IMG/VR virus record: IMGVR_UViG_3300029995_000032
Location: 1 to 30,108 of that record
Length of the DNA stretch: 30,108 nt
Source: a virus
Strand: one strand, 5' to 3'
Shown: in pieces, positions 3,849 to 29,500 of the stretch
Numbering within the stretch: position 1 is the first letter of the stretch
How the letters are laid out: every line of letters begins with the position of its first letter
Position numbers and translations under genes: made by a program
Notes under the pieces: model-generated
What the model saw: the letters and a program-made list of their open reading frames with translations, nothing else
What the model was told of the DNA's origin: nothing
Databases searched by the model: none

Positions 3849-4130
3849 AAAGTGAAAAAGCTCGTTCTAGCGTCCGGGGCAGCACGAGTAAGTAGCTTAA
3901 AGAAATATTGAGGGGCGCGTCTCTTTGATCATAACGCGCAATGGCTCAGCGACCTTGCGGTATAGCAGGAGCCGGATATAGAGGACGAACCGCTTATACA
4001 GTCCGCCGTAAGGTAGCTCCTACGGCAAGCAAAAGACCTCCTGATTCGCTACCAGGAGGCAGCGTCTAAAATCCTAGTCGGTGAGTACGTCTAGGTAGAT
4101 ACCCGCCCCTAAAAAGGCGGGTTTTCTTTT
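3849..4130 (+). ncRNA. Candidate structured noncoding RNA, ~280 nt
   Basis: This gene-poor stretch is far more GC-rich than its flanks and packed with hairpins: CTCGT/ACGAG (3861-3865/3884-3888), GCGCGT/ACGCGC (3915-3920/3934-3939), GGCTC/GAGCC (3943-3947/3969-3973), GGAC/GTCC (3983-3986/4001-4004), GCCGTA/TACGGC (4005-4010/4021-4026), CCTCCTG/CAGGAGG (4037-4043/4053-4059) and CCTAG/CTAGG (4073-4077/4091-4095). It ends in a strong terminator. Apical loops 4011-4020 and 4044-4052 are complementary (GTAGC with GCTAC), allowing a kissing interaction. No own promoter is obvious, so it may come from P2 read-through. It does not look like tRNA, tmRNA or RNase P. A 42-codon ATG frame at 3941 lacks a ribosome site. 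Confidence 0.6.
4102..4130 (+). terminator. Strong intrinsic terminator
   Basis: CCCGCC (4102-4107) pairs with GGCGGG (4116-4121) around an 8-nt loop, followed by TTTTCTTTT. It closes the structured RNA just 4 bp before promoter P3. Confidence 0.9.
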
Positions 4131-4133
4131 ATC

Positions 4134-4163
4134 TTGACAGTTAGCTTTGTCTTGTGGTAAGGT
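4134..4163 (+). promoter_or_regulatory. sigma70-type promoter P3 of the lysis cassette
   Basis: TTGACA (4134-4139) is followed after 18 bp by TAAGGT (4158-4163). The 8-base word GGTAAGGT around the -10 is shared with promoter P4. Transcription would start near 4170, about 26 nt before the endolysin start codon. Confidence 0.65.
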
Positions 4164-4195
4164 GACATGCAAAATAAAAGTCAGGAGGTTTGTTA

Positions 4196-4636
4196 ATGAC
4201 TCGTGAAGAAACCTGTATAAAGCTTCATTCTGTCGCAAGCAAAGAGCTTGGAGTTCATGAAACTGCTGGTTCTGAAGCAACCGCTCGTATTATCGAATAT
4301 GACAAACACACAACTATGAAAGCAACAAGCGACGAAGTTCCGTGGTGTTCAGCTTTTGTAAATTTCGTTGTTGACACGTCTGGTTTTGTAGGTACTCTTT
4401 CTGCTGCTGCTGCATCCTGGCGTAATTGGGGCGTTCCTCTCGAAATTCCTATTAAAGGCTGTATTGTAATACTTCCTAGAAATGATCCCAGCAATCCTAA
4501 TGCGGCGCATGTCACATTTTGCGATCATCCTGATATTTCAAATGGTATAATTCGTTGTCTAGGTGGAAATCAAAGTGATGCTGTAAAAGTTTCAAGGTTT
4601 CCGGTGAAAGGTGCACAGTACCGGAGTCCTATATGA
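4196..4636 (+). CDS. Endolysin, NlpC/P60-like amidase (TIGR02594 type)
   Basis: This 146-aa protein fits the TIGR02594 family of single-domain NlpC/P60-like (Cys/His) peptidoglycan hydrolases used as phage endolysins. Cys51 in VPWCSAFVNF is the likely nucleophile and His105 in NAAHVTF the likely partner. AAASWRNWG (71-79) and LGGNQSD near the end are family signatures. No signal peptide is present, so release by the holin-like protein downstream is expected. AGGAGG sits 7 bases before the ATG at 4196; an upstream TTG at 4190 would leave almost no spacing. It is the first gene after P3. Confidence 0.9.
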   Translation: MTREETCIKLHSVASKELGVHETAGSEATARIIEYDKHTTMKATSDEVPWCSAFVNFVVDTSGFVGTLSAAAASWRNWGVPLEIPIKGCIVILPRNDPSNPNAAHVTFCDHPDISNGIIRCLGGNQSDAVKVSRFPVKGAQYRSPI

Positions 4637-4803
4637 GTTGCCCAAAAGTTCACAAGAAATGTAAGTTCTTTTCAATGTTTAATAGTAGTTGTACTTTGAC
4701 TCAAGTAAAACGAATGCCTTGGGATGATGCTTGTCCTTCTTATGAAGTAAAACCTTTAATTTATATTAAAGGACTTAACGATATTAAACCTTTAGAGGTA
4801 TAG
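4633..4803 (+). CDS. Small tetra-cysteine protein (56 aa)
   Basis: The frame starts at an ATGA overlap with the endolysin stop and ends at 4803, one base before the next start. Four Cys (3, 10, 20 and 34) are spaced to permit a small metal-binding or disulfide fold, and the first half is strongly basic. No family is recognised. Its place between endolysin and holin is likely only operon packing. Support is mainly from the coupling and the unbroken frame. Confidence 0.5.
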   Translation: MSCPKVHKKCKFFSMFNSSCTLTQVKRMPWDDACPSYEVKPLIYIKGLNDIKPLEV

Positions 4804-4804
4804 A

Positions 4805-4930
4805 ATGGCCTTAAAAAGATGTACTTATGACCGCAACGTTGAATGCGATGATTGTCAACGTTGTTTTAAAGAAAAGCAAACATCTCATTTGAAAGTTGCA
4901 ACACAACATTTAAAAGAAAAAGGAGAATGA
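4805..4930 (+). CDS. Tiny Cys-cluster protein (41 aa)
   Basis: This frame begins 2 bases after the previous stop, without a clear ribosome site, and ends at 4930. Its Cys pattern, Cys6-x7-Cys14-x2-Cys17-x2-Cys20, suggests zinc binding; the rest is a basic helix. The sequence before its stop provides the AAGGAG site for the holin-like gene, which supports its being a translated leader. Function is unknown. Confidence 0.5.
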   Translation: MALKRCTYDRNVECDDCQRCFKEKQTSHLKVATQHLKEKGE

Positions 4931-4932
4931 AA

Positions 4933-5205
4933 ATGGCAAGTGTAACCGTAACTCTTCCGACTACCACTAGTTGGAAAACGACCCTTTCAGGCGCGTTAAT
5001 GTCCGTGGCAATTTATTTGTCCTCTTTGGACGGGTACTATGCCATTGTCGGTAAGGCTTTGGTTGTAATTATTCCCATTGTTTGGGGATTGGTTCAGAAA
5101 GACAGCAACGTTACTGGTGGCACTGTGGTTCAGCCTAGTTCTGTTGAAGCCAAGGCTGCTGTAACTACTACTCCTACTGCAACCGCCACTACTCCGGCTG
5201 TGTAA
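4933..5205 (+). CDS. Holin-like membrane protein
   Basis: This 90-aa protein has hydrophobic stretches at about residues 16-33 and 38-55, then QKDSNVTGG, a motif common after the last membrane segment in small phage holin-like proteins, and an Ala/Thr/Pro-rich tail. It sits directly after the endolysin block and before the spanins, the usual holin place. I choose ATG 4933, 7 bases after GGAG; an in-frame ATG at 4927 is only one base from that site. It would form holes in the inner membrane to release the endolysin. Confidence 0.7.
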   Translation: MASVTVTLPTTTSWKTTLSGALMSVAIYLSSLDGYYAIVGKALVVIIPIVWGLVQKDSNVTGGTVVQPSSVEAKAAVTTTPTATATTPAV

Positions 5206-5459
5206 TGGCTGCTTTTCTAGCATGCATTCCTGCCTTATGTGGTTTAATAGTGGCTTTTTTGCAGCTATGGAACGCAAATGCTTCAAATCGAGAGGCAAAA
5301 AGTGCAAATGATAATATACAGAAAGGACGCAAGGATTTGGGCGATGGCAATGTTGTTGCTGTTGAGTCTCGCATTGACAGCTTGCTCACAAACTCAGACA
5401 GTAGTAATGCCGGAATCGAAAGTGCAGAAGATGCTGAAAGGAGAATCAGCCAGCTTTGA
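5205..5459 (+). CDS. Inner-membrane spanin subunit (Rz-like)
   Basis: This 84-aa protein starts at a TAATG overlap with the holin-like gene. It has an N-terminal membrane segment at about residues 4-22, then a polar, probably helical periplasmic part. A lipoprotein gene begins inside it in the +1 frame (5344). That nested arrangement is typical of phage Rz/Rz1 spanins, which join the inner and outer membranes in the last step of lysis of Gram-negative hosts. It is short for an i-spanin, so the call rests on topology and nesting rather than sequence identity. Confidence 0.7.
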   Translation: MAAFLACIPALCGLIVAFLQLWNANASNREAKSANDNIQKGRKDLGDGNVVAVESRIDSLLTNSDSSNAGIESAEDAERRISQL

Positions 5460-5535
5460 TGGATTTTTGCTTACATCTGGTGCTTTAAGTAAATTGCTAG
5501 AAACAGCAGAGAAATGTAAAAGTACTGCAAAGTAA
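5344..5535 (+). CDS. Outer-membrane spanin lipoprotein (Rz1-like), nested
   Basis: This 63-aa frame starts at ATG 5344, with AAGGA 8 bases upstream, inside the i-spanin gene in another frame. The N-terminus is a textbook lipoprotein signal, MAMLLLLSLALTAC, with lipobox LTAC and the lipidated Cys at residue 14. The mature part is short, polar and about 50 residues. A longer frame from 5278 has no ribosome site and would bury the signal. It extends 76 bases beyond the i-spanin stop. This pairing implies a host with an outer membrane. Confidence 0.8.
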   Translation: MAMLLLLSLALTACSQTQTVVMPESKVQKMLKGESASFDGFLLTSGALSKLLETAEKCKSTAK

Positions 5536-5634
5536 AGGAATTTTATGTTTTTTAAAAAATGGAGAAACAATCTAATTAAAGTATTATTAACTTTGTGCAG
5601 TGACCAATGCACAATTAAAAAGGAGATTTTAAAA

Positions 5635-5832
5635 ATGAGCCAAGAACTTGATAACCTAACTGCTTCTGTAACTGCACTTGCCACTAATGTAGCTGCTGCT
5701 ACTGCTGAAATTGCAAAACTGACTACTGAAAAAGAAGACCCTGCTGCACTTCAGACTTTGACTGTTCAGATTAACGCTGCTAATTCTGCTTTAGCTGCTG
5801 CTGTTCCTGCTGCTGTGACGCCTGCTGCTTAA
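5635..5832 (+). CDS. Small Ala-rich coiled-coil phage protein
   Basis: This 65-aa protein begins MSQELDNLTASVTAL and continues as an Ala/Thr-rich helix, followed by a DPAALQTL segment and an Ala/Pro tail. Small proteins of this kind are common in tailed phages near lysis or tail-fiber genes; their role is not known to me. AAGGAG lies 9 bases before ATG 5635. An in-frame ATG at 5545 with its own AAAGGAA would add 30 basic residues, so a longer form is possible; I prefer the shorter because it matches the usual family N-terminus. Confidence 0.7.
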   Translation: MSQELDNLTASVTALATNVAAATAEIAKLTTEKEDPAALQTLTVQINAANSALAAAVPAAVTPAA

Positions 5833-5846
5833 TTGTATGTAAATTT

Positions 5847-5870
5847 AAAGGTAGCAATGTTGCTACCTTT
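5847..5870 (+). terminator. 11-bp perfect hairpin, terminator-like
   Basis: AAAGGTAGCAA (5847-5857) and TTGCTACCTTT (5860-5870) are exact complements. The only T run is the end of the stem, so it may be a partial terminator or an RNA-stability hairpin after the lysis cassette. Confidence 0.6.
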
Positions 5871-5894
5871 ATGTGAATATGCAAGGAGCTTAAA

Positions 5895-6017
5895 ATGTGC
5901 TACGTCTGCCCACATTTATATATTTTAGCAGAACATTGTGGTCTTTGCTATCAAGACATTGACGATGAAGAGATACTTGAAGAAGCAATCCGTAATTTTG
6001 AGTTAGGAGAATGTTAG
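5895..6017 (+). CDS. Tiny zinc-ribbon-like protein (40 aa)
   Basis: AAGGAG lies about 9 bases before ATG 5895. The protein has the pattern Cys2-x2-Cys5-x9-Cys15-x2-Cys18, a plausible minimal zinc-binding knuckle pair, followed by an acidic helix and a terminal Cys. It ends one base before the HNH start, and the sequence near its end (AGGAG at 6005-6009) is the ribosome site for that gene. Function is unknown; it may work with the HNH nuclease. Confidence 0.6.
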   Translation: MCYVCPHLYILAEHCGLCYQDIDDEEILEEAIRNFELGEC

Positions 6018-6018
6018 C

Positions 6019-6423
6019 TTGCCCTCTGCCCCTAGAAAACCTTGCAGAAAGTCGGGATGTAATAAACTTACTGTGGGTACATATTGTGGAGATCATGCTA
6101 TTCAAAAGCAAGTAGAACAAAAGCAAGAACGTATTAAGTATGATAAAGAACGAGGTACTTCGGCAAGTAGAGGCTATACTTCAAGATGGAGCAGAGTAGC
6201 AAAACTTTATCGTATAGAGAATCCTTGGTGCGTTAAATGCAAAGCTAAGGGCATTTTAAAGTTTAACGAATGTGTCGACCACATAGAACCTGTAGATGGT
6301 CCTGATGATCCTAAGTTTTGGGATGAAAGTAATTGGCAAGGGCTTTGTATTTCATGCCACAGTGAGAAAACTGCTTCGGAAGATGGTGCTTTGGGAAATA
6401 AAAAGAAAGAAAGGTTTTTATGA
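6019..6423 (+). CDS. HNH endonuclease, packaging-associated
   Basis: This 134-aa protein is an HNH nuclease of the type found next to terminase genes in HK97-like phages, where it assists DNA cleavage by the terminase. The core is Asp87-His88, Asn105 and His114, with zinc-binding pairs Cys71/Cys74 and Cys110/Cys113. The N-terminus has a second Cys-rich knuckle (Cys9, Cys14, Cys23, His26) usual in this group. The start is a TTG at 6019, 9 bases after AGGAG; there is no better ATG. The stop overlaps the next gene as ATGA. Confidence 0.92.
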   Translation: MPSAPRKPCRKSGCNKLTVGTYCGDHAIQKQVEQKQERIKYDKERGTSASRGYTSRWSRVAKLYRIENPWCVKCKAKGILKFNECVDHIEPVDGPDDPKFWDESNWQGLCISCHSEKTASEDGALGNKKKERFL

Positions 6424-6590
6424 CAGAAGAACAAGAATTAGCTTTGTTGGTGGGCCAGCTTGACTATGATTCGCAACTTAAAGTTGGAAATTGCTATATT
6501 TGTTTAAACGAAGTTCTTAGTAGATATTCTGATGAAATTTCAATGTTGGCTTTGGCTAGAGTTGGTATTGAAAGGACGAACAAACTATGA
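6420..6590 (+). CDS. Small hypothetical acidic protein (56 aa)
   Basis: The frame is coupled to the HNH gene and to the next gene by ATGA overlaps. It is helical in appearance, with one Cys-x2-Cys pair (25/28). No family is recognised. Confidence 0.55.
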   Translation: MTEEQELALLVGQLDYDSQLKVGNCYICLNEVLSRYSDEISMLALARVGIERTNKL

Positions 6591-6739
6591 ACGAAACAAC
6601 TTTTCAGAGAGATTCTTGTAGCAATTGCAAACACAAGCATCTTAAATCCTTTGCTACTCCTTGCGACAAATGTAACGTAGCTGATAAAGAAACTCCATTT
6701 CCTAAATGGGAAAAAGAAGGAAAGTTAAATCATGAGTGA
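6587..6739 (+). CDS. Small zinc-ribbon-like protein (50 aa)
   Basis: Two Cys-x2-Cys pairs (11/14 and 26/29) with basic residues between them form a good minimal zinc-ribbon pattern. The frame begins by ATGA overlap and ends 8 bases inside the next gene. An AAAGGA site (6571-6576) lies upstream within the previous gene. Its role may be nucleic-acid or protein binding in packaging, but this rests only on motif and place. Confidence 0.6.
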   Translation: MNETTFQRDSCSNCKHKHLKSFATPCDKCNVADKETPFPKWEKEGKLNHE

Positions 6740-6869
6740 TATTGACTTTAAAATAACAATTAATTGTAAACTTGATAAGCCTAGTTTTAAAGAACTAAAT
6801 GAATTTATTAAAAAACTGGAAAAAATTAATAAAATTTTGTTACTTAATAAACTTTCTAGGATTAGATAA
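6732..6869 (+). CDS. Small Lys/Asn/Ile-rich protein (45 aa)
   Basis: AAGGA precedes ATG 6732 by about 8 bases. The protein is basic, with a C-terminal helix rich in Lys, Ile and Leu. It ends 1 base before the terminase small-subunit start. No family is recognised, and the very AT-rich composition makes the coding call less certain. Confidence 0.5.
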   Translation: MSDIDFKITINCKLDKPSFKELNEFIKKLEKINKILLLNKLSRIR

Positions 6870-6870
6870 A

Positions 6871-7362
6871 ATGGTAGGAAAAAGACCGAATATAACTGCT
6901 TTGCATGTTGTAGATAAAGCCCATGCTTATCGGCATAAAGATCAACCTGAACCGTCTAAAGATACTCCCGTTGCTCCTGAATATCTTTCAGAAGAAGCAA
7001 AAGCTATTTTTAATGAACTAGTTGAAACGATTAACGAACTTTATCCTGCTTCTGCTTCTCATACTGAAATGATTGCTTTATATGCCGAACATAAAGAACT
7101 TGCATTGCAAATGGATTGGTTTTTAAGAAGCATTGATCCTGAAACCGGCAGACAGCACGGTCATACCTACACAACTTTAAATAAACTTGGCGAGAAGATG
7201 ATTAAGCCTAGACCTGAAGTAAAAATACTTCATGACGCTAGGGTATCTTGTTCCAATATACTTAAAGAATTCGGGCTTTCCCCTTCTAGCCAGCGTTCGG
7301 TTAAAATTGAAAAGAAAAAAGCAGTTGAAAATGCTTTTGCTAATCTTGATAAAATAGGTTAA
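6871..7362 (+). CDS. Terminase small subunit (P27-like)
   Basis: This 163-aa protein fits the P27-type small terminase family. After a basic N-terminus it has PEYLSEEAKAIFNELV (about 36-51), a central helical region, and LKEFGLSPSSQRSVK near the C-terminus, matching the family's G-L-P-x-S-R ending. It recognises phage DNA and presents it to the large subunit. I choose ATG 6871, with an AGGA about 10 bases upstream; a frame reaching back to 6799 would overlap the preceding gene. Unusually, the large subunit does not follow directly: a homing-type nuclease lies between them. Confidence 0.85.
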   Translation: MVGKRPNITALHVVDKAHAYRHKDQPEPSKDTPVAPEYLSEEAKAIFNELVETINELYPASASHTEMIALYAEHKELALQMDWFLRSIDPETGRQHGHTYTTLNKLGEKMIKPRPEVKILHDARVSCSNILKEFGLSPSSQRSVKIEKKKAVENAFANLDKIG

Positions 7363-7455
7363 CATGTTTAGTCAGATGTGGTAGCGTGTGTCCTACATAA
7401 ATCACGTATCGTGCAGGATGCGTTAAGGTAGTGCGATCTTCCCTGGTCGCCACTT

Positions 7456-7500
7456 GCAAAGCCCTTAATTTTCGACTGCGCTCGAAATTTTGGGCTTTGC
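7456..7500 (+). promoter_or_regulatory. Long hairpin before the GIY-YIG gene
   Basis: GCAAAGCCC (7456-7464) and GGGCTTTGC (7492-7500) are perfect 9-bp complements, with TTTCGA/TCGAAA (7470-7475/7482-7487) inside. CATTTTT follows. It could end transcription from the terminase small-subunit gene, or limit access to the GGAG at 7508-7511, as hairpins do before some phage homing-endonuclease genes. The rest of the gap (7363-7455) holds no gene I can see. Confidence 0.65.
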
Positions 7501-7517
7501 TCATTTTTGGAGTTGCT

Positions 7518-8471
7518 ATGTATGAAATTGAAGATATATCCGTCTTAGAAGTTTCGATTAAAATTCGAGTTAGAGAAAAGAATGGAATTAGTACAAAACC
7601 GACTAATATTTATATTTGTTGCGACCCTTTAACAATGGAACCTAGATATATAGGAAAAACTGTAAAGCCGGTGCATGTTAGAATCAGAGAGCATACTACA
7701 AAAGTAAACAATACTTATTCGAATAAATGGTTTCATAAGATAAAAGTACCATATTATTTTATAGTCGAAATAGTTCCCCCTGGTGAAAATTGGGCTGAAG
7801 CTGAACAATTTTGGATAGCTTATTTTAAAAGTTTAGGAGCTAGACTTACAAATCTTTCTTTTGGTGGTGAAGGAACTACTGGATATAAACTCTCAGATGA
7901 AGCAAAAGATAAAATAAGAGTAAAGTCAAAAGGACGAATTGTTTCAAAAGAAACTCGCATTAAATTGAGTATTGGTAGTTTGGGCAAAGAAAAATCAAAA
8001 CTTCATAGAGAACGAATGAGCAAATCTAATAAATTAAGATGCTTGGGAGTTTTTAGAACTGAAGAAGATAGATTGGCGATAGCTGCTGGAATGATAGGCT
8101 TAGTGCCGACTCCAAGGTCTGAACAAGCAAAACGAAATATGAGCGAATCCCAAAAAGGTCACTCTGTTTCTGAATCATGTAAAGAAAATATTAGAAAAGC
8201 GTTGATTGGACGAAAACTTTCAGAGGAACACAAAGCGCATATTAGCGAAAGTGGAAAAGGCCGAAAATTTACCGAAGATCACAAAGAAAAAATAAGTAGC
8301 GCGTTAACTGGTAAAGTTCGTACCGCTGAACATTGCGCTAAAATTAGCGATGGTAAAAAGGGAAAGAATAAAGGTCCAATGCCGCCAGAAGTTTTAGCTA
8401 AAAAAATGGCAGCTTACTATAAAAATAAAGAAACTAAAGAAATTTTAGCAGCGTGGAGTTGTGCGCTATGA
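7518..8471 (+). CDS. GIY-YIG homing-type endonuclease with NUMOD3 repeats
   Basis: This 317-aa protein has an N-terminal GIY-YIG nuclease domain: NIY (30-32), YIG (44-46), Arg55/Arg57 in the helix after it, and Glu96 as metal-binding acid. From about residue 120 it has at least five NUMOD3-type repeats of about 17 residues (pattern G-KLSEEHK-HIS-S-KG), as in SegA- or I-TevI-like enzymes that bind DNA. GGAG lies 6 bases before ATG 7518; the frame's extension to 7431 crosses the hairpin and is unlikely. No intron is evident, so it is a free-standing selfish gene between terS and terL, coupled to terL by ATGA. Confidence 0.9.
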   Translation: MYEIEDISVLEVSIKIRVREKNGISTKPTNIYICCDPLTMEPRYIGKTVKPVHVRIREHTTKVNNTYSNKWFHKIKVPYYFIVEIVPPGENWAEAEQFWIAYFKSLGARLTNLSFGGEGTTGYKLSDEAKDKIRVKSKGRIVSKETRIKLSIGSLGKEKSKLHRERMSKSNKLRCLGVFRTEEDRLAIAAGMIGLVPTPRSEQAKRNMSESQKGHSVSESCKENIRKALIGRKLSEEHKAHISESGKGRKFTEDHKEKISSALTGKVRTAEHCAKISDGKKGKNKGPMPPEVLAKKMAAYYKNKETKEILAAWSCAL

Positions 8472-10192
8472 CCTACTTGGAAAAATCTTTAAAATATTGC
8501 GAAGATGTAATTAACGATACCCTATCTAATCGTAAATCTTGCAATTTTGAAAAATTAGCTTGCAAACGTCAACTTAAAGATTTAGAGCGCCAGAATTATG
8601 AAAACTTTCCGTATTATTTTGATGAAAAAGCTGGCGATAGGCATTGCCGATTTATGGAAATGCTGCCTCATGTAAAAGATCAATGGAAAGGTACTCTTTT
8701 AACTTTGGAGCCGCACCAAGTCTTTATGCACCATACTCTATACGGATGGCGAAAAAAAAGCAATGGCTTTAGAAGGTTTTCTAAAGCTTATTTTGAACTT
8801 CCTAGAAAGCAAGGTAAATCATTTTCTGCGGCTGGAATTGCACTTTATATGGGGTTTGCTGATAAAATTTACGGGGCTGAAGTATATTGTGCGGCAACTA
8901 CTGAATCTCAAGCACAAATGGTTTTTAAACCAGCTTGGCAAATGGTTCAGATGAATAACGATTTGAAAGAAGCGTTCGGCTTAACTTTGGCAGGAACTCC
9001 AAAAAACCCAACTTCTATATATAGACTTGAAGACATGTCTTTAGTTTCGCCTGTAGTTGGTCGTGCTTCAGACGGTCAAGCCCCTTCGTGCGCAATTATT
9101 GACGAATACCACGAACATCCAAACAGTAGTTTGCTAGATGCTTTTGTAACTGGAACTGGAAGCAGGCAACAACCGTTAATTTTAATAATTACAACTGCTG
9201 GTTTTGATACAACTTATCCTTGTTACGAAGAACACTTAGAAGCTATTAAAATTTTAGAAGGTAGCTTAGAAAAGGAGCATGTTTTTGTAGCAATGTTTGG
9301 AATTGATAATGACGACGATTGGACTGATTTTGAAGTATGGAAAAAGGCGAATCCTAATTACGGAGTTTCCATACAAGAAGACGGGTTAATGATTCAATAT
9401 CAAGATGCTATGAATAGTTTAAAAAATAGAAATACTCTTTTATGCAAGCATTTAAACAAATGGATGAATGCAGGTTCAGCCTGGATGGATATGCAAAAGT
9501 TTGAATTGTGTAAAAGACCTGATTTAAAATTAGAAGACTTTTACGGTCATGAAGTTTGGATAGGTGTAGATTTAGCAAACAAAATAGATTTGTGTGCTGT
9601 TCAACTTTTATTTAAATTACCAGATGGAGGTTTTGTTACTTTTGGGAAATACTATCTTCCTGAAGAAATTGTAAATAAAAAAGAAAATTCGCATTACCAA
9701 CTTTGGCGTGACGAAGGTCTTTTAATAACAACTGAAGGTGCTGTTACTGACTTTTTTAAAATAGAAGAAGATTTAAAAGAACTTGATAAACTGTTTGTTA
9801 TAAAAGAACTCGACTTTGATCAAAAAGAAGCTCATTTTTGGGTGCAAACAATTCAATTGTGGGCTAATTTTGAATGTATTGAAATACCTCAATCTGCTCA
9901 ATTTATAAGCGAACCAATGAAGACTTTAGAATCTTTAATTTATGATGGCAAAATGTTGCATGATGGAAATAAACTTTTAACTTGGTCTTTTGGAAATGTA
10001 ATTCAAAAACTAAGTAGAGGCTCAAGTTCTGTAAAATATTATTATCCAGCTAAACAAACTAATGCTAATAAAATTGATCCGGTATGCGCTTTAATTATGG
10101 CTCTAAGCAGAGCTTTAGTATGTGAAGACGACGGTAATATTTACAACAAACGCGCCGCAAGAGGCGAAAAAGACATATTGAGGGTGCTATGA
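8468..10192 (+). CDS. Terminase large subunit
   Basis: This 574-aa protein is the packaging ATPase-nuclease. Walker A is PRKQGKSF (112-119), Walker B is AIIDEYHE (209-216, Asp212-Glu213), and ITTAGFDTT (241-249) matches the coupling motif region. The nuclease domain starts near WIGVDLA with Asp368. Length and order fit the HK97/P27-type Terminase_1 family. I choose ATG 8468, overlapping the endonuclease stop and 9 bases after GGAG; a GTG at 8453 has no ribosome site. It docks on the portal and pumps DNA into the prohead. Confidence 0.95.
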   Translation: MTYLEKSLKYCEDVINDTLSNRKSCNFEKLACKRQLKDLERQNYENFPYYFDEKAGDRHCRFMEMLPHVKDQWKGTLLTLEPHQVFMHHTLYGWRKKSNGFRRFSKAYFELPRKQGKSFSAAGIALYMGFADKIYGAEVYCAATTESQAQMVFKPAWQMVQMNNDLKEAFGLTLAGTPKNPTSIYRLEDMSLVSPVVGRASDGQAPSCAIIDEYHEHPNSSLLDAFVTGTGSRQQPLILIITTAGFDTTYPCYEEHLEAIKILEGSLEKEHVFVAMFGIDNDDDWTDFEVWKKANPNYGVSIQEDGLMIQYQDAMNSLKNRNTLLCKHLNKWMNAGSAWMDMQKFELCKRPDLKLEDFYGHEVWIGVDLANKIDLCAVQLLFKLPDGGFVTFGKYYLPEEIVNKKENSHYQLWRDEGLLITTEGAVTDFFKIEEDLKELDKLFVIKELDFDQKEAHFWVQTIQLWANFECIEIPQSAQFISEPMKTLESLIYDGKMLHDGNKLLTWSFGNVIQKLSRGSSSVKYYYPAKQTNANKIDPVCALIMALSRALVCEDDGNIYNKRAARGEKDILRVL

Positions 10193-10344
10193 ATGAACTG
10201 GAAGAACATTGGAAAAGAACCGTTCGTTTAATGCTTTATAATATTGATATTAAAGAAGAAATGTTAGACCTTTATTTTAAAGCTGGTTTTACTTGCGAAC
10301 AAGCTTTTCTAAAAATTAAACAGACATTTATGGCTATTTTATAG
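10189..10344 (+). CDS. Small hypothetical protein (51 aa)
   Basis: The frame starts at an ATGA overlap with the terminase stop and is predicted to be all-helical, with one Cys. An AGGG lies about 5 bases upstream. No family is recognised. Twelve bases separate it from the next gene. Confidence 0.55.
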   Translation: MNELEEHWKRTVRLMLYNIDIKEEMLDLYFKAGFTCEQAFLKIKQTFMAIL

Positions 10345-10355
10345 AAAGGAGAGTT

Positions 10356-10676
10356 ATGACAACTTTAGATTGTGTTGCTAGTGAAAAAGGCAAAATTAGT
10401 TTTGAACAACATCGTGTTGAAAATTTTGATTATAGCAAAGAAATTACTATTTGCAAAATAAACGCCACGGTAACTGATAGAAATGGTTTAAGTTGGTCTA
10501 AAGACTTGCCTACAAAAGAAGGTTGGTATTGGCTGAAGCGTGATGAAGATTTTGAGATAATTTACATCCACTACGATGCTTATGATGATCCTTACATTGA
10601 AGGTAGAGATTTGTATGAGCGTTTAACCGAAAGGAAAAATCATTTATGGTATGGCCCAATTGAGCCTCCGAAATAA
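10356..10676 (+). CDS. Phage hypothetical protein with EGWYWLK...WYGPIE motif
   Basis: This 106-aa protein follows an AAAGGAG site 4 bases before ATG 10356. It carries LPTKEGWYWLK at about 52-62 and WYGPIEPP at the end, a motif pair I know from many uncharacterised phage proteins; the function is not known. Many aromatic and acidic residues suggest a small beta-rich fold. It is the last gene before the noncoding region with two promoters. Confidence 0.75.
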   Translation: MTTLDCVASEKGKISFEQHRVENFDYSKEITICKINATVTDRNGLSWSKDLPTKEGWYWLKRDEDFEIIYIHYDAYDDPYIEGRDLYERLTERKNHLWYGPIEPPK

Positions 10677-10720
10677 CGATAACCATTATTCACAATATCC
10701 GCTGTTTTTGTAAATAATAG

Positions 10721-10749
10721 TTGACATTAAGTAAACATTTCGGTAAGGT
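10721..10749 (+). promoter_or_regulatory. sigma70-type promoter P4
   Basis: TTGACA (10721-10726) is followed after 17 bp by TAAGGT (10744-10749); the word GGTAAGGT is shared with P3. A terminator lies only about 75 bases after the expected start site, so this promoter appears to serve a small RNA. Confidence 0.7.
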
Positions 10750-10755
10750 TATTTT

Positions 10756-10837
10756 ACCTGTTTAATTGTCGCCCGATATGCGGCAATGCTTGTCCACATA
10801 AAGCTTCTGCAATTAATTTTGCAGGGGCTTTATTTTT
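10756..10837 (+). ncRNA. Candidate small RNA (~80 nt)
   Basis: A complete sRNA-like unit: promoter P4, then a first hairpin ATTGTCGC/GCGGCAAT (10765-10772/10780-10787, one G-U pair), a short single-stranded linker, and a terminator hairpin with a T run. No start codon with a reading frame is present. The transcript ends 2 bases before promoter P5, so it is separate from the head operon unless read-through occurs. The target is unknown. Confidence 0.6.
10800..10837 (+). terminator. Intrinsic terminator of the small RNA
   Basis: AAAGC/GCTTT (10800-10804/10827-10831) and CTGCAA/TTGCAG (10807-10812/10819-10824) form an interrupted 11-bp stem with a TTAATT loop, followed by ATTTTT. It insulates the head operon from upstream transcription. 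Confidence 0.85.
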
Positions 10838-10839
10838 AC

Positions 10840-10868
10840 TTGACAATATATGAAAAATCGAATATAAG
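10840..10868 (+). promoter_or_regulatory. sigma70-type promoter P5 of the head operon
   Basis: TTGACA (10840-10845) and TATAAG (10863-10868) are separated by 17 bp. It starts the operon of portal, protease and capsid genes, with a leader of about 75 nt. Confidence 0.8.
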
Positions 10869-10892
10869 ATTATCAACACTGCTTCACTACAA

Positions 10893-10946
10893 CGGGTAGA
10901 GAAGCTGCCGAAACGAAGCCGGGACACAGCAAACAGGAGCTACCCG
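10893..10946 (+). promoter_or_regulatory. Structured leader over the head-operon ribosome site
   Basis: CGGGTAG (10893-10899) pairs perfectly with CTACCCG (10940-10946), and GCTG with CAGC (10904-10907/10927-10930) inside. The Shine-Dalgarno AGGAG (10935-10939) touches the stem and the stem's 3' strand fills the gap before the TTG start at 10950. Folding should therefore affect initiation. AGGAGCTACC (10935-10944) is also an exact complement of an apical loop in the RNA at 3849-4130. Confidence 0.5.
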
Positions 10947-10949
10947 CAC

Positions 10950-11144
10950 TTGATTAAACGCATTCTCTCCATAGTGCCGGACAAGTCCGACAGCTTCTTG
11001 TATTTAGGTACAGGAGCGGTCTTTTTCGGCGTCTATCTTATTTACCCTCCTGCTGCTTACATCACCGTGGGGCTCATATTTTTGTATGTCGCTTGGTTGC
11101 AAGCCAAACCTCCCGTAATGCTTTCTGCAAAGGAGAGTGAATAA
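10950..11144 (+). CDS. Small membrane protein before the portal gene
   Basis: This 64-aa protein has two hydrophobic stretches, at about residues 16-34 and 36-52, joined by YPPAA. Similar tiny membrane proteins beginning with a basic segment and SIVPDK-like sequence sit just upstream of the portal gene in many HK97-like phages; their role is unknown. The start is a TTG at 10950, ten bases after AGGAG. The stop overlaps the portal start as TAATG. Confidence 0.75.
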   Translation: MIKRILSIVPDKSDSFLYLGTGAVFFGVYLIYPPAAYITVGLIFLYVAWLQAKPPVMLSAKESE

Positions 11145-12514
11145 TGGCCTTGCTAGCCCCTGCATTTGAGTCGAGAGCCGCTACAGGGGCAATTTTACCG
11201 CTTTCTGGCGGTGATCCTGCATTGTCTACCTACTTCGGTGGTGGCGGTATCAGCAATTCGGGGCAAAATGTAAATTCAAACACCGCCCTTAAAACCTCAA
11301 CAGTTTATGCTTGTATTAATCGCAGAGGCAAATGCTTTGCAATGTTGCCTCTTCACATTATGCGCAAATTGCCCGGTGGCGGTCATGAAATAGCGGATAA
11401 GTTCAGGCTGTATAAGCAAATGAATCTAAGCCCTAATGCTTGGCAGACGTCTTACGAATGGCGTTTAACTGGCATGCTTCATATTCAAATGCGCGGCAAC
11501 TTTTATAATTACATTCAATCAACGCCCGGGCGTGGTTTAAATCAATTAATACCTCTTGATCCTGATAGAGTATGGCCGTTTATAGTAACTCCTTTGGGTG
11601 TTACGTATTACATGTATGACAATAGCCCAACTCCTCCGGCGAATTCAAAGGTTTATTACCAATACTTTCCATTTAATGGTCAAACTGTAATTTTTGATTC
11701 GTCTGAGATTCTTCATATTAGGGGAATGAGCCAAAACAGCATTGTGGGCAAAACTGTAGTTAAGTTGTTTGCTGAAAGTTGCGGCCTTGCAATGGCAATG
11801 GAAGAACAAGGTGCAAGACTTTTTACCAACGGCGCTCAAATTTCTAAAGTTTTCGAACATCCCGGAAAGTTGGATGATGAAGCTTTTGATAGATTGCGTG
11901 AACAACTTAACGGTTATACTGGCGTAGAACAAGCTCATAGAACTATGATACTCGAAGAAGGTATGAAAGTATCAAGTCTTAGTATGACAATGCAAGATAG
12001 CCAGTTTATTGAAAGCCGTAAATTTCAAGTAGAAGACCTTTGTTCCTTCCTTGATATTCCGATGATGTTGATTCATCGTTCCGGGGATAAGAACCAAACG
12101 TTTGCTTCTGCTGAAGTTGTCATGCAAATGTTCGTTACTTTAAGTATGCAACCTGACTTTGAAAATTGGGAGCAACGACTTAAAAAAGATTTGCTTTACG
12201 ATTCGGAACAAGATTACTTTTTTAAATTTGATTTTGATGAACTTATGCGTGGCGACTCTGCTGCAAGAGCTTCTTATTATAAGTCTCGTTTTGATACAGG
12301 TTCGATTACTCCTAATGACATTAAACGTAAAGAGGGTGAAAGTCCTTATAACAACGAAGAGAGTGATTTAACTTATGTTCAACCTGGGGTTTTACCTGCA
12401 AAATTAGCAGGACAACAAAATCAACCAGCACCAAGCGAAACAAAGCAAATAGATTCGACTAAAGTTGCTGAACCTAAAGTTATTGAACCTAAAAAAGTTG
12501 AGGAGGCTAAATGA
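11144..12514 (+). CDS. Portal protein (HK97 family)
   Basis: This 456-aa protein matches the HK97-type portal family: TSTVYACINRRGKCFAMLPL (51-70 region), MRGNFYNYI, LIPLDPDRVWP, and a C-terminal segment with KSRFDTGSITPNDIKRKEG typical of the family. The last 50 residues are a Pro/Lys/Glu-rich tail. It forms the ring at one vertex, binds the terminase and is the entry for DNA. AGGAG lies 8 bases before ATG 11144. Coupled by ATGA to the next gene. Confidence 0.95.
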   Translation: MALLAPAFESRAATGAILPLSGGDPALSTYFGGGGISNSGQNVNSNTALKTSTVYACINRRGKCFAMLPLHIMRKLPGGGHEIADKFRLYKQMNLSPNAWQTSYEWRLTGMLHIQMRGNFYNYIQSTPGRGLNQLIPLDPDRVWPFIVTPLGVTYYMYDNSPTPPANSKVYYQYFPFNGQTVIFDSSEILHIRGMSQNSIVGKTVVKLFAESCGLAMAMEEQGARLFTNGAQISKVFEHPGKLDDEAFDRLREQLNGYTGVEQAHRTMILEEGMKVSSLSMTMQDSQFIESRKFQVEDLCSFLDIPMMLIHRSGDKNQTFASAEVVMQMFVTLSMQPDFENWEQRLKKDLLYDSEQDYFFKFDFDELMRGDSAARASYYKSRFDTGSITPNDIKRKEGESPYNNEESDLTYVQPGVLPAKLAGQQNQPAPSETKQIDSTKVAEPKVIEPKKVEEAK

Positions 12515-12690
12515 ACTTTACAATTTTAGGCAAAGAAGGTTATGAATCTTATTGTTATGCTTCTGGAAATAAAAGTTTAGTTTCCGGCTGCGAACTGCCT
12601 AAATGGGAAGAACTCAGACCTGAAATAAAAACAGCTTGGATAGCTTCAGCAACAGCAATTATTGAACTTGGAAAGGTGCTAAATGTATGA
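12511..12690 (+). CDS. Small phage protein with LPxWxEL...AW motif (59 aa)
   Basis: The frame is coupled to the portal stop and to the bacterioferritin start by ATGA overlaps. It has YESYCYASGNKSLVSG followed by LPKWEELRPEIKTAWIASA, a pattern common to small phage and prophage proteins encoded in structural or packaging clusters; function is unknown. GAGG lies about 5 bases upstream of the ATG. Confidence 0.75.
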   Translation: MNFTILGKEGYESYCYASGNKSLVSGCELPKWEELRPEIKTAWIASATAIIELGKVLNV

Positions 12691-13157
12691 AAGGTTCTGA
12701 TAAAGTAATTTCTAAACTAAATAGTTTGCTGGCTTCTGAACATTCAGCAATAGTTCAATATACTGTACACGCGCGTGAAATGGCAAACTTTGGTTATGAA
12801 AAACTTACTGAATATATAACTGAAAGAATGAATCAAGAAAAAGAACATGCTCAAGAATTGATTGATCGCATATTATTTCTTGAAGGAATTCCGCTTTTTG
12901 AAAATATTGACGCTGTAAATGTGGGTAGCACGGTTCTTGAAATATTTCCTAATGATCAGGCTTCTGAGATAACTGCAATAACGGGTTATACGGAAGGAAT
13001 TGAGATAGCTGTTGCGGAAAAAGACTTTACCACAAGAGCTTTACTTGAACATATTCTAGGCGAAGAAGAAAAGCATCTTAGCGATATAGAAAGTAACATT
13101 TATCAAATAACTCAAATGGGTATAGACAACTATCTCCCGGTACAAATAGAGGGGTGA
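12687..13157 (+). CDS. Bacterioferritin, heme ligand missing
   Basis: This 156-aa protein is a full-length bacterioferritin (E. coli Bfr is 158 aa). The di-iron ferroxidase residues are all present at the E. coli positions: Glu18, Glu51, His54, Glu94, Glu127 and His130, with Tyr25. RILFLEGIP (61-69) is a family block. The heme-binding Met52 of E. coli Bfr is Lys here, and His46/Asp50 are Glu/Gln, so heme binding and inner-surface iron transfer should differ. It could oxidise and store iron, protecting DNA or phage particles from iron-driven damage. Its place between portal and prohead protease, coupled by ATGA to the previous gene, means it is expressed with the head genes. Such a location is very unusual. 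Confidence 0.93.
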   Translation: MKGSDKVISKLNSLLASEHSAIVQYTVHAREMANFGYEKLTEYITERMNQEKEHAQELIDRILFLEGIPLFENIDAVNVGSTVLEIFPNDQASEITAITGYTEGIEIAVAEKDFTTRALLEHILGEEEKHLSDIESNIYQITQMGIDNYLPVQIEG

Positions 13158-13160
13158 TTT

Positions 13161-13817
13161 ATGAAACCTGACGAATTTGAAAAAACTGAGGACGTAGAAA
13201 GGCGTACTCATACTGTAGAAATGCGGATTAAAGAACCTACTATTGGCAAAAAATCAGCAACTATTGAAGGTTATGCTGCTAATTTTAATTCGCTTTCTGA
13301 AGATTTAGGCGGGTTTCGTGAGATGCTAATGCCTGGGTGCTTTGCCGATGCTTTAAAAACTTCCGACATTCGGGCCTTATTTAATCACGATCCTAATTAC
13401 GTGCTTGGCCGCAACATGTCAGGAACGTGTCGTTTGATTGAAGACGAAAAAGGTTTACGTTTTGAAGTTGATCCTCCTGACACTACTTACGCGAGAGACT
13501 TACAAGTTTCTATGAGCAGGGGCGATATTAATCAATGCAGTTTTGGTTTTCGTGTGGCTGAAGACGGTGATGCCTGGCGTAAAGAACCTGACGGAACTTA
13601 TTTACGTTCGATTATGAAAGTAGATCGTTTGTTTGATGTTTCTCCGGTAACTTATCCGGCTTATACTTCAACTTCTTGTGCTGTTCGTTCTTTGCTTCAA
13701 AAGAAACAAGAAGAAGAATCTGAAGAAAAACGTAAATTGGAAGAGCAAAAAGAAGTTGAACGGCAGCAAGCAGTTTATATTAAAAGAAAACGTCTGGAAC
13801 TTGCCGAAAGACTGTAA
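13161..13817 (+). CDS. Prohead maturation protease (HK97 family)
   Basis: This 218-aa serine protease cuts the capsid protein's N-terminal scaffold domain after prohead assembly. The key residues are His76 in LFNHDPNYVLGR and Ser127 in INQCSFGF; MLMPGCFADAL (55-65) is the usual P-G-F/A-F block. The last 45 residues are a charged Glu/Lys/Arg coiled coil. GAGGGG lies about 6 bases before ATG 13161. It follows the bacterioferritin by 3 bases and precedes its substrate gene. Confidence 0.95.
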   Translation: MKPDEFEKTEDVERRTHTVEMRIKEPTIGKKSATIEGYAANFNSLSEDLGGFREMLMPGCFADALKTSDIRALFNHDPNYVLGRNMSGTCRLIEDEKGLRFEVDPPDTTYARDLQVSMSRGDINQCSFGFRVAEDGDAWRKEPDGTYLRSIMKVDRLFDVSPVTYPAYTSTSCAVRSLLQKKQEEESEEKRKLEEQKEVERQQAVYIKRKRLELAERL

Positions 13818-13854
13818 ACTAAAAGGTCGCGTATAGCGCCGAAGGAGAAATGGT

Positions 13855-15102
13855 ATGGCTAAAAATCTTAAAGAATTGTATGAACTTCGTGGTAAAGCTG
13901 TAGCCGATGCGCGTGTTTTAGTTGACGCGGCAGACAACGCAAAACGTATTATGAACGAAGATGAAGAACGACAGTACAAAGCTTTCATGTCTGATGAAGC
14001 ACGTTTTGCTGATGAAATTAAGCGTGAGGAAGAACTTCTTAGTGCTGAAAAAAGGGTAGCTGGTGAAAATCTTGCTGCACAGAACAAAGATGAACAGCGC
14101 GGTAAGCAGTCGCCTGAAAATGAATTGCGCTCTACTGCGTTCCGCAAATTGCTGGTACAGGGGGAACAGTCTCTTTCTCTTGACGAGCATCGTACCTTGA
14201 CTACTGGCAGTGACACCCAGGCGGGTTTTTTGAATTCTCCGCAAGAGTTCGTTCAACAGTTGATTGAGCGTGTCCATGACGAAGTTTTCATTGAAGCCGC
14301 TTCTACTCAGCATACTACCACGAATGCAAACGGGCTTGGCTTTCCGTCTCTCGAAACTTATCCCGGCAAAATTAAGATGATTACTGAAATTGGCGAAGTA
14401 AAGGAAGACAAAGCCCTTGCTTTTGGCAAGCGTGAGTTTAAACCGCATCTTGCTCGTAACCTTATCAAAATTTCGACCAAAATGCTTCGTGCTGATGGTA
14501 TGAATCCTGAAACCATTGCCATTAACGCAATGACTTATATTATTTCGATTACCAAAGAATATATGTATCTTCTTGGTACTGGCAATCAAGAACCTCTTGG
14601 CCTGTTTACTGCTTCTGACAAAGGCATTCCCACAAGTCGCGACTTTACAACCGATATGAATGCTGGAAATGATCCTACAGGAGCTTTTAACTTCACTGCC
14701 GATGCTCTTAAAGGTGTTAAGTACAGTTTGAAAGCACAGTATATGAAAACTGCTTCTTGGTTGTTTCATCGTGACGCTGTTGCGCGTCTTGCCAAACTCA
14801 AAACCGGCGACGGCTATTACATCTTTGATGCTACTGATAAAGTTGGCGCTGTGGATCAGCTTTTGGGCCGTCCGCTGATGATGTCTGAATATGTGCCTAA
14901 TACCTTTACAGCAAGTCAGTATGTGGGCATGTTTGGCGATCTTAGCAAATATTGGACTGTAAATAGTCTTGCTCTTCGTATTCAGCGTTTGAATGAATTG
15001 TTTGCCGCAACCGGCGAAGTTGGTTTCTTGTTTGAACTTGAATTTGACGGTATGCCTGTTCTTTCTGAAGCTTTCACTCGTATCAAAACCGCGGCGGCTT
15101 AA
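13855..15102 (+). CDS. Major capsid protein (HK97 fold)
   Basis: This 415-aa protein is the main shell subunit. Residues 1-90 are a charged coiled coil acting as built-in scaffold (delta domain), expected to be removed by the protease. The mature part begins near residues 100-125 and includes GFLNSPQEFVQQLIE, LIKISTKMLRADGMN, LLGTGNQEPLGLF and LFHRDAVARLAKLK, all typical of HK97-like capsids. GGAG lies 7 bases before ATG 13855; an ATG at 13850 is out of frame. Codon use is more GC-rich than in most neighbours, in keeping with high expression. A hairpin follows the stop. Confidence 0.96.
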   Translation: MAKNLKELYELRGKAVADARVLVDAADNAKRIMNEDEERQYKAFMSDEARFADEIKREEELLSAEKRVAGENLAAQNKDEQRGKQSPENELRSTAFRKLLVQGEQSLSLDEHRTLTTGSDTQAGFLNSPQEFVQQLIERVHDEVFIEAASTQHTTTNANGLGFPSLETYPGKIKMITEIGEVKEDKALAFGKREFKPHLARNLIKISTKMLRADGMNPETIAINAMTYIISITKEYMYLLGTGNQEPLGLFTASDKGIPTSRDFTTDMNAGNDPTGAFNFTADALKGVKYSLKAQYMKTASWLFHRDAVARLAKLKTGDGYYIFDATDKVGAVDQLLGRPLMMSEYVPNTFTASQYVGMFGDLSKYWTVNSLALRIQRLNELFAATGEVGFLFELEFDGMPVLSEAFTRIKTAAA

Positions 15103-26528: not shown

Positions 26529-29500
26529 ATGCCGCCTCTTGTAGTAGCTTTAGCTGTTTATATTGGAACTATCGCCGCAACTATTGTAGTTTACGGCTCT
26601 ATTATTATAACTTTAGCTTCTATAGCTTATTCTGCTTATATGATGGCTACTATGGAAAAGCCTAGTAGTCAATCAGACGCCACAAACAGAACCCAAACAG
26701 TAAGGTCTACCGTTCAACCTCATAGAATAATTTACGGGGAAGTTATGACAGGAGGGGTTCTTGTTTATGCGCAATCTCATTCTATCGACCCTGAAACTAA
26801 TTTAAAAGTAGACGGAACTAATATTTATATTAGTTTAGTTGTTGTTTTTTGCGCTCACGAAGTTGAGCAAATTAAAGAAATTTGGTTAAACGATAAGCTT
26901 TCAACAGACGTTGCTTTTAAAAAACATGTTGATTTTCAAGCCGAACAAGGTTTCTCGACTAGAATACCAGACCCTACAGGAGATAGTGAAAACGGCATTT
27001 ATGTTTGGACTAAAACTAGAGATGAAATTTTAGAACACGATGGTTCTTGGGTTCATATAAATAAATATACAGGCACTTTAACTCAAGAGGCCGATCCTTT
27101 TTTAATGTCTCTTCCTCCTAATCCTTCTAGTATAATTTCTTCTTATCCGCAAAGCGGGTTAAATGATTTAGTTATTAAAAATAATGATGATGGTACTGGA
27201 ACTTTTACAGGAATAGGTGTTGCTGTTTTTACTATAAAACTTTCAGATTTGGCATCTAACGCAGGTGCTACTGCTGGTTTTCCTAATGACACTTTTACTT
27301 GGAAAGAACAAAAGTATGAAGGCGATGGGTCTACTTTAGATAACGCTGCTTCTGGAACTTTAAGTATAACTGGTGATTATCAATTATTAGCAGAAGGAAT
27401 TCAAATTAAATTTTCTGCTTTAACTGGCCATAGTATCGGTCAAACTTGGGAAATTAGAGTTTTTGACGGTTCTCCTTGGACTTCCGATTGCAAATTGACA
27501 AATAGAGCTTATGTAGTGGTCACAATGGAGAAAAACGATACAATTTTTCCAAACGGATTGCCCAACGTAAAAGCTTTAATTTTGGGTAATAACAAAATTT
27601 ATAATCCTCGCACAGAACTTACCAATTATAGTAATAATTGGGCTTTATGTGTAAATAACTATTTAACCTCTAAATTTGGTTTGAATGCTGTTTATGAAGA
27701 AGATATAAATGAAACGGTTTTAATAGCTGCTGCAAATATTTGCGATGAAGATGTTTTGTCAGCAAACGGCGCTACTCAAAAAAGATATCCTATTAATGGA
27801 TCGTTCACAGTAGATAAAACACCTACTGCAATAATGAATGAAATTTTTGCAACTGCTTATGGGGCTATTACTTGGACTCAAGGGCAATACAGAATATTGC
27901 CAGCCGCTTATTACGCCCCTGATTTAACTTTTTATGGAATGAATTCTTCAATTGTGGGTCTTACTGATTCGGATTTAAGAGGTTCTATTAAAGTAAGACC
28001 TTTGTCGAGCATGAAGGACAAATTTAATACTGTCAAAGGAACTTTCGTTTCTACTGAAACTTGGCAAACTATAGATTTTCCTAAAGTCACAAATGCTTTA
28101 TATTTAGAAGAAGACGGAGGGATTGAAATTGTAAAAGATATTCAACTCTCTTATGTTACCGATGCTGGTATGGCTCAACGCATTGCTAAAATAGTATTGG
28201 AAAAAAGCAGACAAAGCATTGCTGTTGATTTTCCTGCAAAATGGTCTGCTTTTCCTTTAGCGGTTGGTGATAATGTTCCAATTACTATAAACTACTTAGG
28301 ATGGGCCCAAAAAATATTTACAGTTAGAGATTGGAAAATGAACCCGGAGGGCGGCATTGATTTGCAACTTCAAGAAGATGCAATAGGTTGCTATGCTTGG
28401 AATAGTGGGGAAGAAACAACTGTAGATTTAGCTCCTAACACAATATTACCAGACGCTAGAATTGTCAGTAAACCAATACAATTAGCGAGCAACTATCGAA
28501 GATATGACACTAATTCAAATACAAACACAAGAATGGATTTGTATATAACTTGGTCTGCCGGAGATGGAAGAGCTGTTAAATATCAAGTCCAATATGAAGA
28601 ACCGTCTGCCGCTATTTGGTTAAGCATACCGGATACAAGTGACACGGTTGCAACTGTTAATAATTTGCTTGAAGGTACTTATAATATTAGAGTTCGGGCA
28701 ATTAGTGCATTAGGCGTAATGTCAGATTGGGTCACTACAAGTTGTTATGTTCCTCTGCCTGATTTTGTTATACCTGATATAACTGGTTTGGAAATATTTG
28801 GGCAAGGAAACATTACTGAATTTGTGGGCAAAGATATTAAATTGGATTGGCGTAAAGTATCTCCTAGAGTTAGCAGCACTGTTGACAGTACGGCTTCTGT
28901 CAATCAAAATAATTCTTGGTTTAGATATTATGAATTAAAAGTATTTACTGAAAATGATGTTTTGCTTAGAACTGAATATTTAGCTACTGAAAGCTATAAT
29001 TATGACTATGAAAAAAATTACGCCGACAATTCAGGATTGCCAAAAAGAAATGTTAAGTTTGAATTAAGAGCGGTTTCTACTTGGGGCGAAGTATCGGCAA
29101 ATCCTGCTAAGTTGGAAGTTAACAATCCCCCTGTTGCAAAACTTACAGGAATTGTTTTAACTGGCGGGGTAAACATTTTTTCAGTAGCTTTGCCCGTTCC
29201 GCTCGATTCTGATTTTGCCGGTTTCATCGTTTGCGCATCGCAGACGAGCGGATTTACGCCAGGAACGTCTAACCAGATCAACACAGGGGGTAGTGAGGCT
29301 CAGGTTACAAAGACAGCAGCTACGGTCGGTGTGTGGTATGTTCGGGCAGCGGCTTATGACTCGTTTGGTTCTGACGGGGCTATTTATTCTGATGAATACT
29401 CTGTAACGGTAAACAGCTTTAGTATTGATGCAGGTAATTTAGACGCTGCTCAAAGAGTAGATTTTTATATTAGAAACTCTAACTTTTATTTTGCAACCGC

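Follow-up and report, generated by a model that had tools for sequence, protein, structure and literature searches.

A conserved bacterioferritin gene in the head module of uncultivated tailed phages, with ferroxidase sites lost or rebuilt in some ferritins beside the portal

Results

A bacterioferritin homologue is encoded inside a phage head operon

The window analysed here, a 30,108-base virus record from IMG/VR, carries a genuine bacterioferritin (Bfr) gene that is conserved as part of the phage head module and placed between the genes for portal and prohead protease. In remoter phages the position after the portal is held by ferritins whose ferroxidase centre has been lost or rebuilt, although the gene, its slot and the fold are retained, so that a plain reading as an iron-detoxification AMG is insufficient. 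The relevant features of the window are:

6799–7362, + strand: terminase small subunit
8453–10192, + strand: terminase large subunit
11144–12514, + strand: HK97-type portal protein
12511–12690, + strand: 59-aa ORF, function unassigned, with ATGA overlaps at both ends
12687–13157, + strand: Bfr ORF (ATG start, 156 aa, no internal stop)
12840–12842, + strand: codon 52 of Bfr (AAA, Lys), the haem-ligand Met position of canonical Bfr
13161–13817, + strand: prohead serine protease (Peptidase_S78)
13855–15102, + strand: HK97-fold major capsid protein (MCP)

That 12687–13157 encodes a bacterioferritin homologue is virtually certain, and chance is a negligible source of the observation. The product contains a ferritin-like domain (Pfam Ferritin PF00210, E 1.3e-28, residues 9–143) and aligns over its full length with NCBIfam bfr TIGR00754 (4.4e-36, 124.2 bits, 1–154 of 157), narrowly missing the equivalog cut-off of 125.55 bits. 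Bacterioferritins in the PDB were matched by sequence (best 3e-28), the nearest being 9h1u_M, a heterooligomeric Bfr subunit with Leu at 52. An AlphaFold2 model (mean pLDDT 96.8) comprises helices at residues 5–35, 38–64, 83–110, 114–144 and 146–153, the last being the C-terminal fifth helix, and solved Bfrs match it at TM about 0.94–0.99, with the S. oneidensis hetero-Bfr 9iig as the best fold match. Length, five-helix fold, six ferroxidase ligands and Tyr25 are shared with E. coli Bfr 1bcf and P. aeruginosa BfrB (TIGR00754; TM 0.96–0.99), and the C-terminus (...NYLPVQIEG) is as in E. coli Bfr; unlike canonical Bfr, the window protein lacks Met52, scores below the cut-off and sits in a phage head operon. 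The full-length Bfr described by the sequence-only reading is thus borne out by Pfam, TIGR00754 and PDB matches and by the modelled fold. PHROGs returned no significant match to the protein (best E 0.015), and its best viral structure match (BFVD) was only 20% identical. Weak structural matches in BFVD included long uncultured-phage proteins named ‘Prohead protease’ (A0A6J7WPK9, A0A6J7XDU5 and A0A6J7WIS1) and ‘Dps’ proteins of 201–679 aa; ferritin–protease fusions are possible among them.

Profile matches of the neighbouring genes confirm the earlier placement of Bfr between portal and prohead protease, and the translational coupling proposed upstream was found as a start overlap. One ATGA (12511–12514) joins the portal stop to the start of the 59-aa ORF, and a second (12687–12690) joins the stop of that ORF to the Bfr start; relatives do not keep the 59-aa ORF, and their Bfr follows the portal either directly or after other small ORFs. 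A separate IMG/VR contig (L209/L002) corresponds to window 4097–13933 with one mismatch in 9837 bases (99.99%), and a chimera is unlikely because of this near-identity over 9.8 kb; together with relatives of the same gene order, it excludes the assembly error at 12511–13160 that the sequence-only reading had raised. Elsewhere in the window, a NUMOD3/GIY-type homing endonuclease (7431–8471) lies between the terminase subunits, and a large ORF of at least 1193 aa (26529–30107), tail-tip/fibre-like by eye, is open at the contig end, so that the record ends inside the tail module.

The window group keeps the ferroxidase ligands and replaces the haem ligand

Alignment confirmed that all six ferroxidase ligands (E18, E51, H54, E94, E127 and H130) are present in the window Bfr, as had been claimed, and they are complete in nine full-length members (the window, L003, L004, L009, L010, L011, L096, L171 and L172). 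With these ligands intact, the window protein is probably ferroxidase-competent and iron oxidation is probable in the window phage. Residue 52, Met in 76 of 80 fetched cellular Bfrs, is Lys or Arg in all seven phages of the window group. As Lys52 replaces Met52, we treat the window protein as a haem-ligand-less Bfr homologue, not as canonical Bfr, and its sequence predicts that it cannot bind haem in the usual manner. Glu occupies residue 46 and Gln residue 50; among the same cellular Bfrs, His46 occurs in only 26 and Asp50 in 44. The loss of the haem ligand is notable and the changes at 46 and 50 are not, because Met52 is near-constant and His46 and Asp50 vary widely. Hence the Glu/Gln replacements highlighted beforehand are present but unremarkable, and the lost haem ligand, though correctly read as Lys52, is not unusual, haem-free and ferroxidase-active Lys52 subunits being known in cells (SoBfr1; PMC12120770).

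Such subunits offer the closest cellular comparison. S. oneidensis SoBfr1 belongs to cages that incorporate an extra co-expressed subunit (PMC12120770), and M. gryphiswaldense Bfr1 is likewise haem-free and ferroxidase-active (PMC6529640). These hetero-Bfr subunits and 9h1u_M resemble the window protein in keeping the ferroxidase centre with a residue other than Met at 52; they differ in that the window gene has no haem-binding partner gene alongside and the phage head clade lies apart from cellular Bfrs. One ferritin match each was found in the window and in related viral contigs, records that may be fragments and whose host might supply a partner, and a search of the related phage contigs returned no second ferritin and no Bfd.

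The portal–Bfr–protease order recurs in related phages

Whether this gene order recurs has a clearly positive answer among IMG/VR relatives. Six contigs encode Bfrs with 83% (L003), 66% (L004), 64% (L009), 63% (L010), 59% (L011) and 53% (L096) identity to the window protein, each in the order portal–Bfr–protease–MCP. L171, L172 and a truncated L177, which have Met52 and a complete ferroxidase centre where present, are remoter members of the clade, as are L192 and L220; the portals of L171, L192 and L220, loci found via their Bfr, share 51%, 53% and 52% identity with that of the window. In a portal survey, 5 of the 72 loci having a portal plus protease or MCP carried Bfr: every portal at least 56% identical to the window's was accompanied by one, and no Bfr was seen at loci with portals at most 36% identical. 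Overall, wherever a recovered portal was at least 50% identical to that of the window, this order was retained. About 22 distinct viral contigs carried a Bfr or ferritin-fold gene next to the portal, a count that is not an unbiased frequency, as the scans used phage sequences in their queries. Bfr commonly abuts or overlaps the portal stop, with ATGA in L004, L011, L192, L220, L197 and L199.

Pairwise dN/dS of the phage Bfrs is roughly 0.07–0.26 (Nei–Gojobori, pairs with estimable dS), values that are rough because dS is largely saturated, and the range resembles those of portal and MCP; the window-group Bfr is under purifying selection. Homing endonucleases related to that at window 7431–8471 lie between Bfr and protease in L004 (4932–5576) and L009 (8474–9190), and the slot therefore accepts insertions. 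Two further observations concern neighbouring head genes. The portal of L003 (958–2319) is in two ORFs of 288 and 148 aa, by frameshift, sequencing error or real disruption, and the TerL of L010 (1567–4533; 988 aa) has an intein-like insert that splits its match to the window TerL (two BLAST pieces, translation inspected).

Ferroxidase centres are lost or rebuilt in other portal-adjacent ferritins

Catalytic residues survive in the window group, in L171 and L172 and, where present, in L177; they are lost in L192 and L220 and changed in L193–L205. The ferritins of L192 and L220 share 53% identity and are without most ferroxidase ligands (H18, S51, S54 and K94 in L192; F18, S51, N54 and V94 in L220), and both proteins stop before the fifth-helix region. 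They nest within the window clade (11 head-slot rows, support 99/89, or 97/87 without the second group described below), and a scan for more ferroxidase-dead relatives of the two returned none further.

The second group (L193, L194 and L197–L205) has portals only 24–33% identical to the window's, and its ferritin-fold gene always follows the portal (L193 4694–5152; L194 8001–8459; likewise L197–L205). Its site is rebuilt, with Ala or Thr at 51, His52, Phe or Trp at 54, His127 and His130, and carries the conserved motifs EAHLN.QYR and KWHxxHxxW; a new metal site may possibly be formed by H20, H52, H127 and H130. The model has a clean Bfr fold (pLDDT 93.4, TM about 0.96), and dN/dS is 0.05–0.27 in five members. 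A profile of the rebuilt ferritins matched in 16 of 395 cellular genomes, and the six matches inspected were ordinary Bfrs. L195 encodes a lone, long-branched ferritin with His51, Asn54, Ile127 and Arg130. Alignment of the slot family revealed no N- or C-terminal extension resembling a targeting or scaffolding tag.

In trees resting on about 156 columns, cellular Bfrs fall outside the phage head clade. Uniting all head-slot groups in one clade was rejected (p-AU 0.006, with long branches), and the topology suggests that Bfr was probably recruited next to the portal on two or more occasions, a number we word cautiously because the second group sits on a long branch. An 18-row all-viral clade in the first tree (96/91) is not claimed, its support being 61/56 without the second group.

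Bacterioferritins occur in other viral contexts and in uncultivated phages

Association with head or neck genes is strong but not universal among other viral Bfrs. The Mu-like L185 (2–5614; PHROGs matches) has the order portal–Bfr–protease–MCP in another head lineage, with Val at residue 52. By PHROGs, Bfr lies between major head protein and neck protein in L178, lies between major head protein and tail sheath in L179, and adjoins the head–tail adaptor in L174; in L173, L183, L184, L186 and L187 it is not visibly in head or neck modules. In L184 (8176–9675) and L186 (8556–10055), the viral Bfr genes stand beside very large DarB-like antirestriction proteins.

A collection of 50,697 isolated-phage records gave no convincing phage Bfr match, and the location, described as rare at the outset, is accordingly rare for isolated phages but not for uncultivated ones. 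Matches in that collection were set aside. ‘Pseudomonas phage Y5’ (L005, OQ572407.1) has argG, pyrC, rnt and a peroxiredoxin as bfr neighbours and reads by eye as bacterial chromosome; L006 (MT835709.1, a faecal scaffold) looks by eye like a piece of actinobacterial chromosome; Acinetobacter phage MD-2021a and two Salmonella contigs look bacterial, judged by size and names only; and L007, L008 and MT840072 were also not counted as convincing. The nearest cellular Bfr found was that of Geotalea, and with the window portal as query nothing passed among 277 genomes of Geotalea's class.

Discussion

Phage iron genes are usually classed as metabolic cargo. The position, coupling and recurrence of this gene across unrelated head modules, together with catalytic-site loss in the slot, argue that the programme for building particles can include a ferritin fold. 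We judge it an evenly balanced proposition that the gene encodes a late, co-translated ferritin acting in or around the assembling head and, in the window phage, oxidising iron. Being translated together with portal, protease and MCP, Bfr would appear late and probably at structural-protein levels. It might then form a cage or sub-assembly that is put together jointly with the (pro)head, packed inside it or fixed to it, a contact to which gene order points, and in the window phage it would also oxidise and hold iron. A head role is favoured over pure iron detoxification because catalytically changed versions stay in the slot and because recruitment beside the portal was probably repeated. Against a head role, descent alone may keep gene order within one clade; most window-clade members have intact ferroxidase ligands, which point to iron chemistry; in several viruses Bfr is encoded away from head modules; and the proteins bear no targeting or scaffolding extension. 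More broadly, and tentatively, leaning slightly against it ourselves, we suggest that tailed phages took up Bfr into the head module two or more times (as prohead cargo, a scaffold-like protein or a portal-associated component) and that its iron chemistry became dispensable in some lineages, which would make it a ferritin-fold virion-assembly family and the phage counterpart of the encapsulin–ferritin pairing. As the slot is the first gene after the portal, further cases should be easy to find and test.

The gene could instead encode a soluble late iron-detoxification enzyme, that is, an AMG: cytoplasmic 24-mer cages would oxidise Fe2+ and curb Fenton damage to phage DNA, and the operon would simply provide strong late expression. 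Six ligands in nine full-length members, purifying selection and a canonical fold agree with this, as do the viral Bfrs outside head modules, and the gene is indeed a host-type metabolic gene lying between viral genes on viral contigs. There are also precedents. For a Vrana Lake sediment vOTU, a viral bfr was described as an AMG subject to purifying selection (PMC10904782), and viral bfr was also reported in Flandersviridae vOTUs (PMC11780533). Both are likewise carried by uncultivated viruses but are regarded as metabolic or adaptive, and the available portions of these two papers describe neither a conserved portal–protease slot nor ferroxidase loss for those genes. Dps and Mn-catalase are frequent in gut phages (PMC8008677), and the Dps/ferritin-like proteins of Gratiaviridae and Lactobacillus phages share the ferritin superfamily with the window protein, although they are Dps, not Bfr. 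Iron detoxification, suggested by the sequence-only reading, is nevertheless not supported as an overall explanation of the gene, since the same slot holds ferroxidase-destroyed (L192, L220) or rebuilt (L193–L205) ferritins. The repeated recruitment beside the portal and the head or neck positions in other phage types are left equally unexplained, and we consider this reading rather unlikely.

It is improbable that the protein serves as a haem-free partner of host Bfr, in a mixed cage shifted towards oxidation and storage or, with the dead versions, poisoned. Both the closest solved sequence (9h1u_M) and the best fold match (9iig) are heterooligomeric Bfrs, the S. oneidensis haem-free subunit has Lys52 in cages that accept an extra subunit (PMC12120770), and a second ferritin and Bfd were not found in related phage contigs. 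However, L171, L172 and L177 of the same head clade have Met52, the absence of the C-terminal helix region in L192 and L220 should harm cage assembly, and the tight portal linkage is unexplained.

A Ferrojan-Horse-like role, in which iron-loaded ferritin on the particle aids binding or entry via iron-uptake receptors, seems very improbable. A ferritin-like protein does occur in Vi01-like virions beside a tail completion protein (PMC10892097), and some viral Bfrs are near neck and sheath genes, but the window gene is in the head operon, not the tail operon, the Vi01-like phages showed no dependence on TonB or FeoB (PMC10892097), and the usual route of iron loading would be closed to ferroxidase-dead members. 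An assembly artefact or functionless passing moron, for which the homing endonucleases adjoining Bfr in L004 and L009 might speak, is already refuted by the 99.99% identical separate contig, by the 53–83% identical relatives in the same slot and by dN/dS well below 1.

Viral Bfr genes are thus already known, as are haem-free Lys52 subunits; for the conserved head slot, our search of the non-subscription literature found no report of a conserved portal-adjacent Bfr or of ferroxidase loss there. The reading of the gene as a head-module ferritin bears on how HK97-fold shells and ferritins came to pair in encapsulins, which are known with ferritin-like or Bfr cargo (PMC8346489). As in the window, encapsulin systems place a ferritin-superfamily gene beside an HK97-fold shell gene; in the window, by contrast, a phage capsid accompanied by portal, protease and terminase genes serves as the shell, and Bfr has no C-terminal targeting peptide. 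Finally, two peptides of host bacterioferritin were reported in CsCl-purified virions of Stenotrophomonas phage AXL1 (PMC9206674), so that unattached cages may co-purify with virions; the peptides reflect either such contamination or, as a hint, association with the particle.
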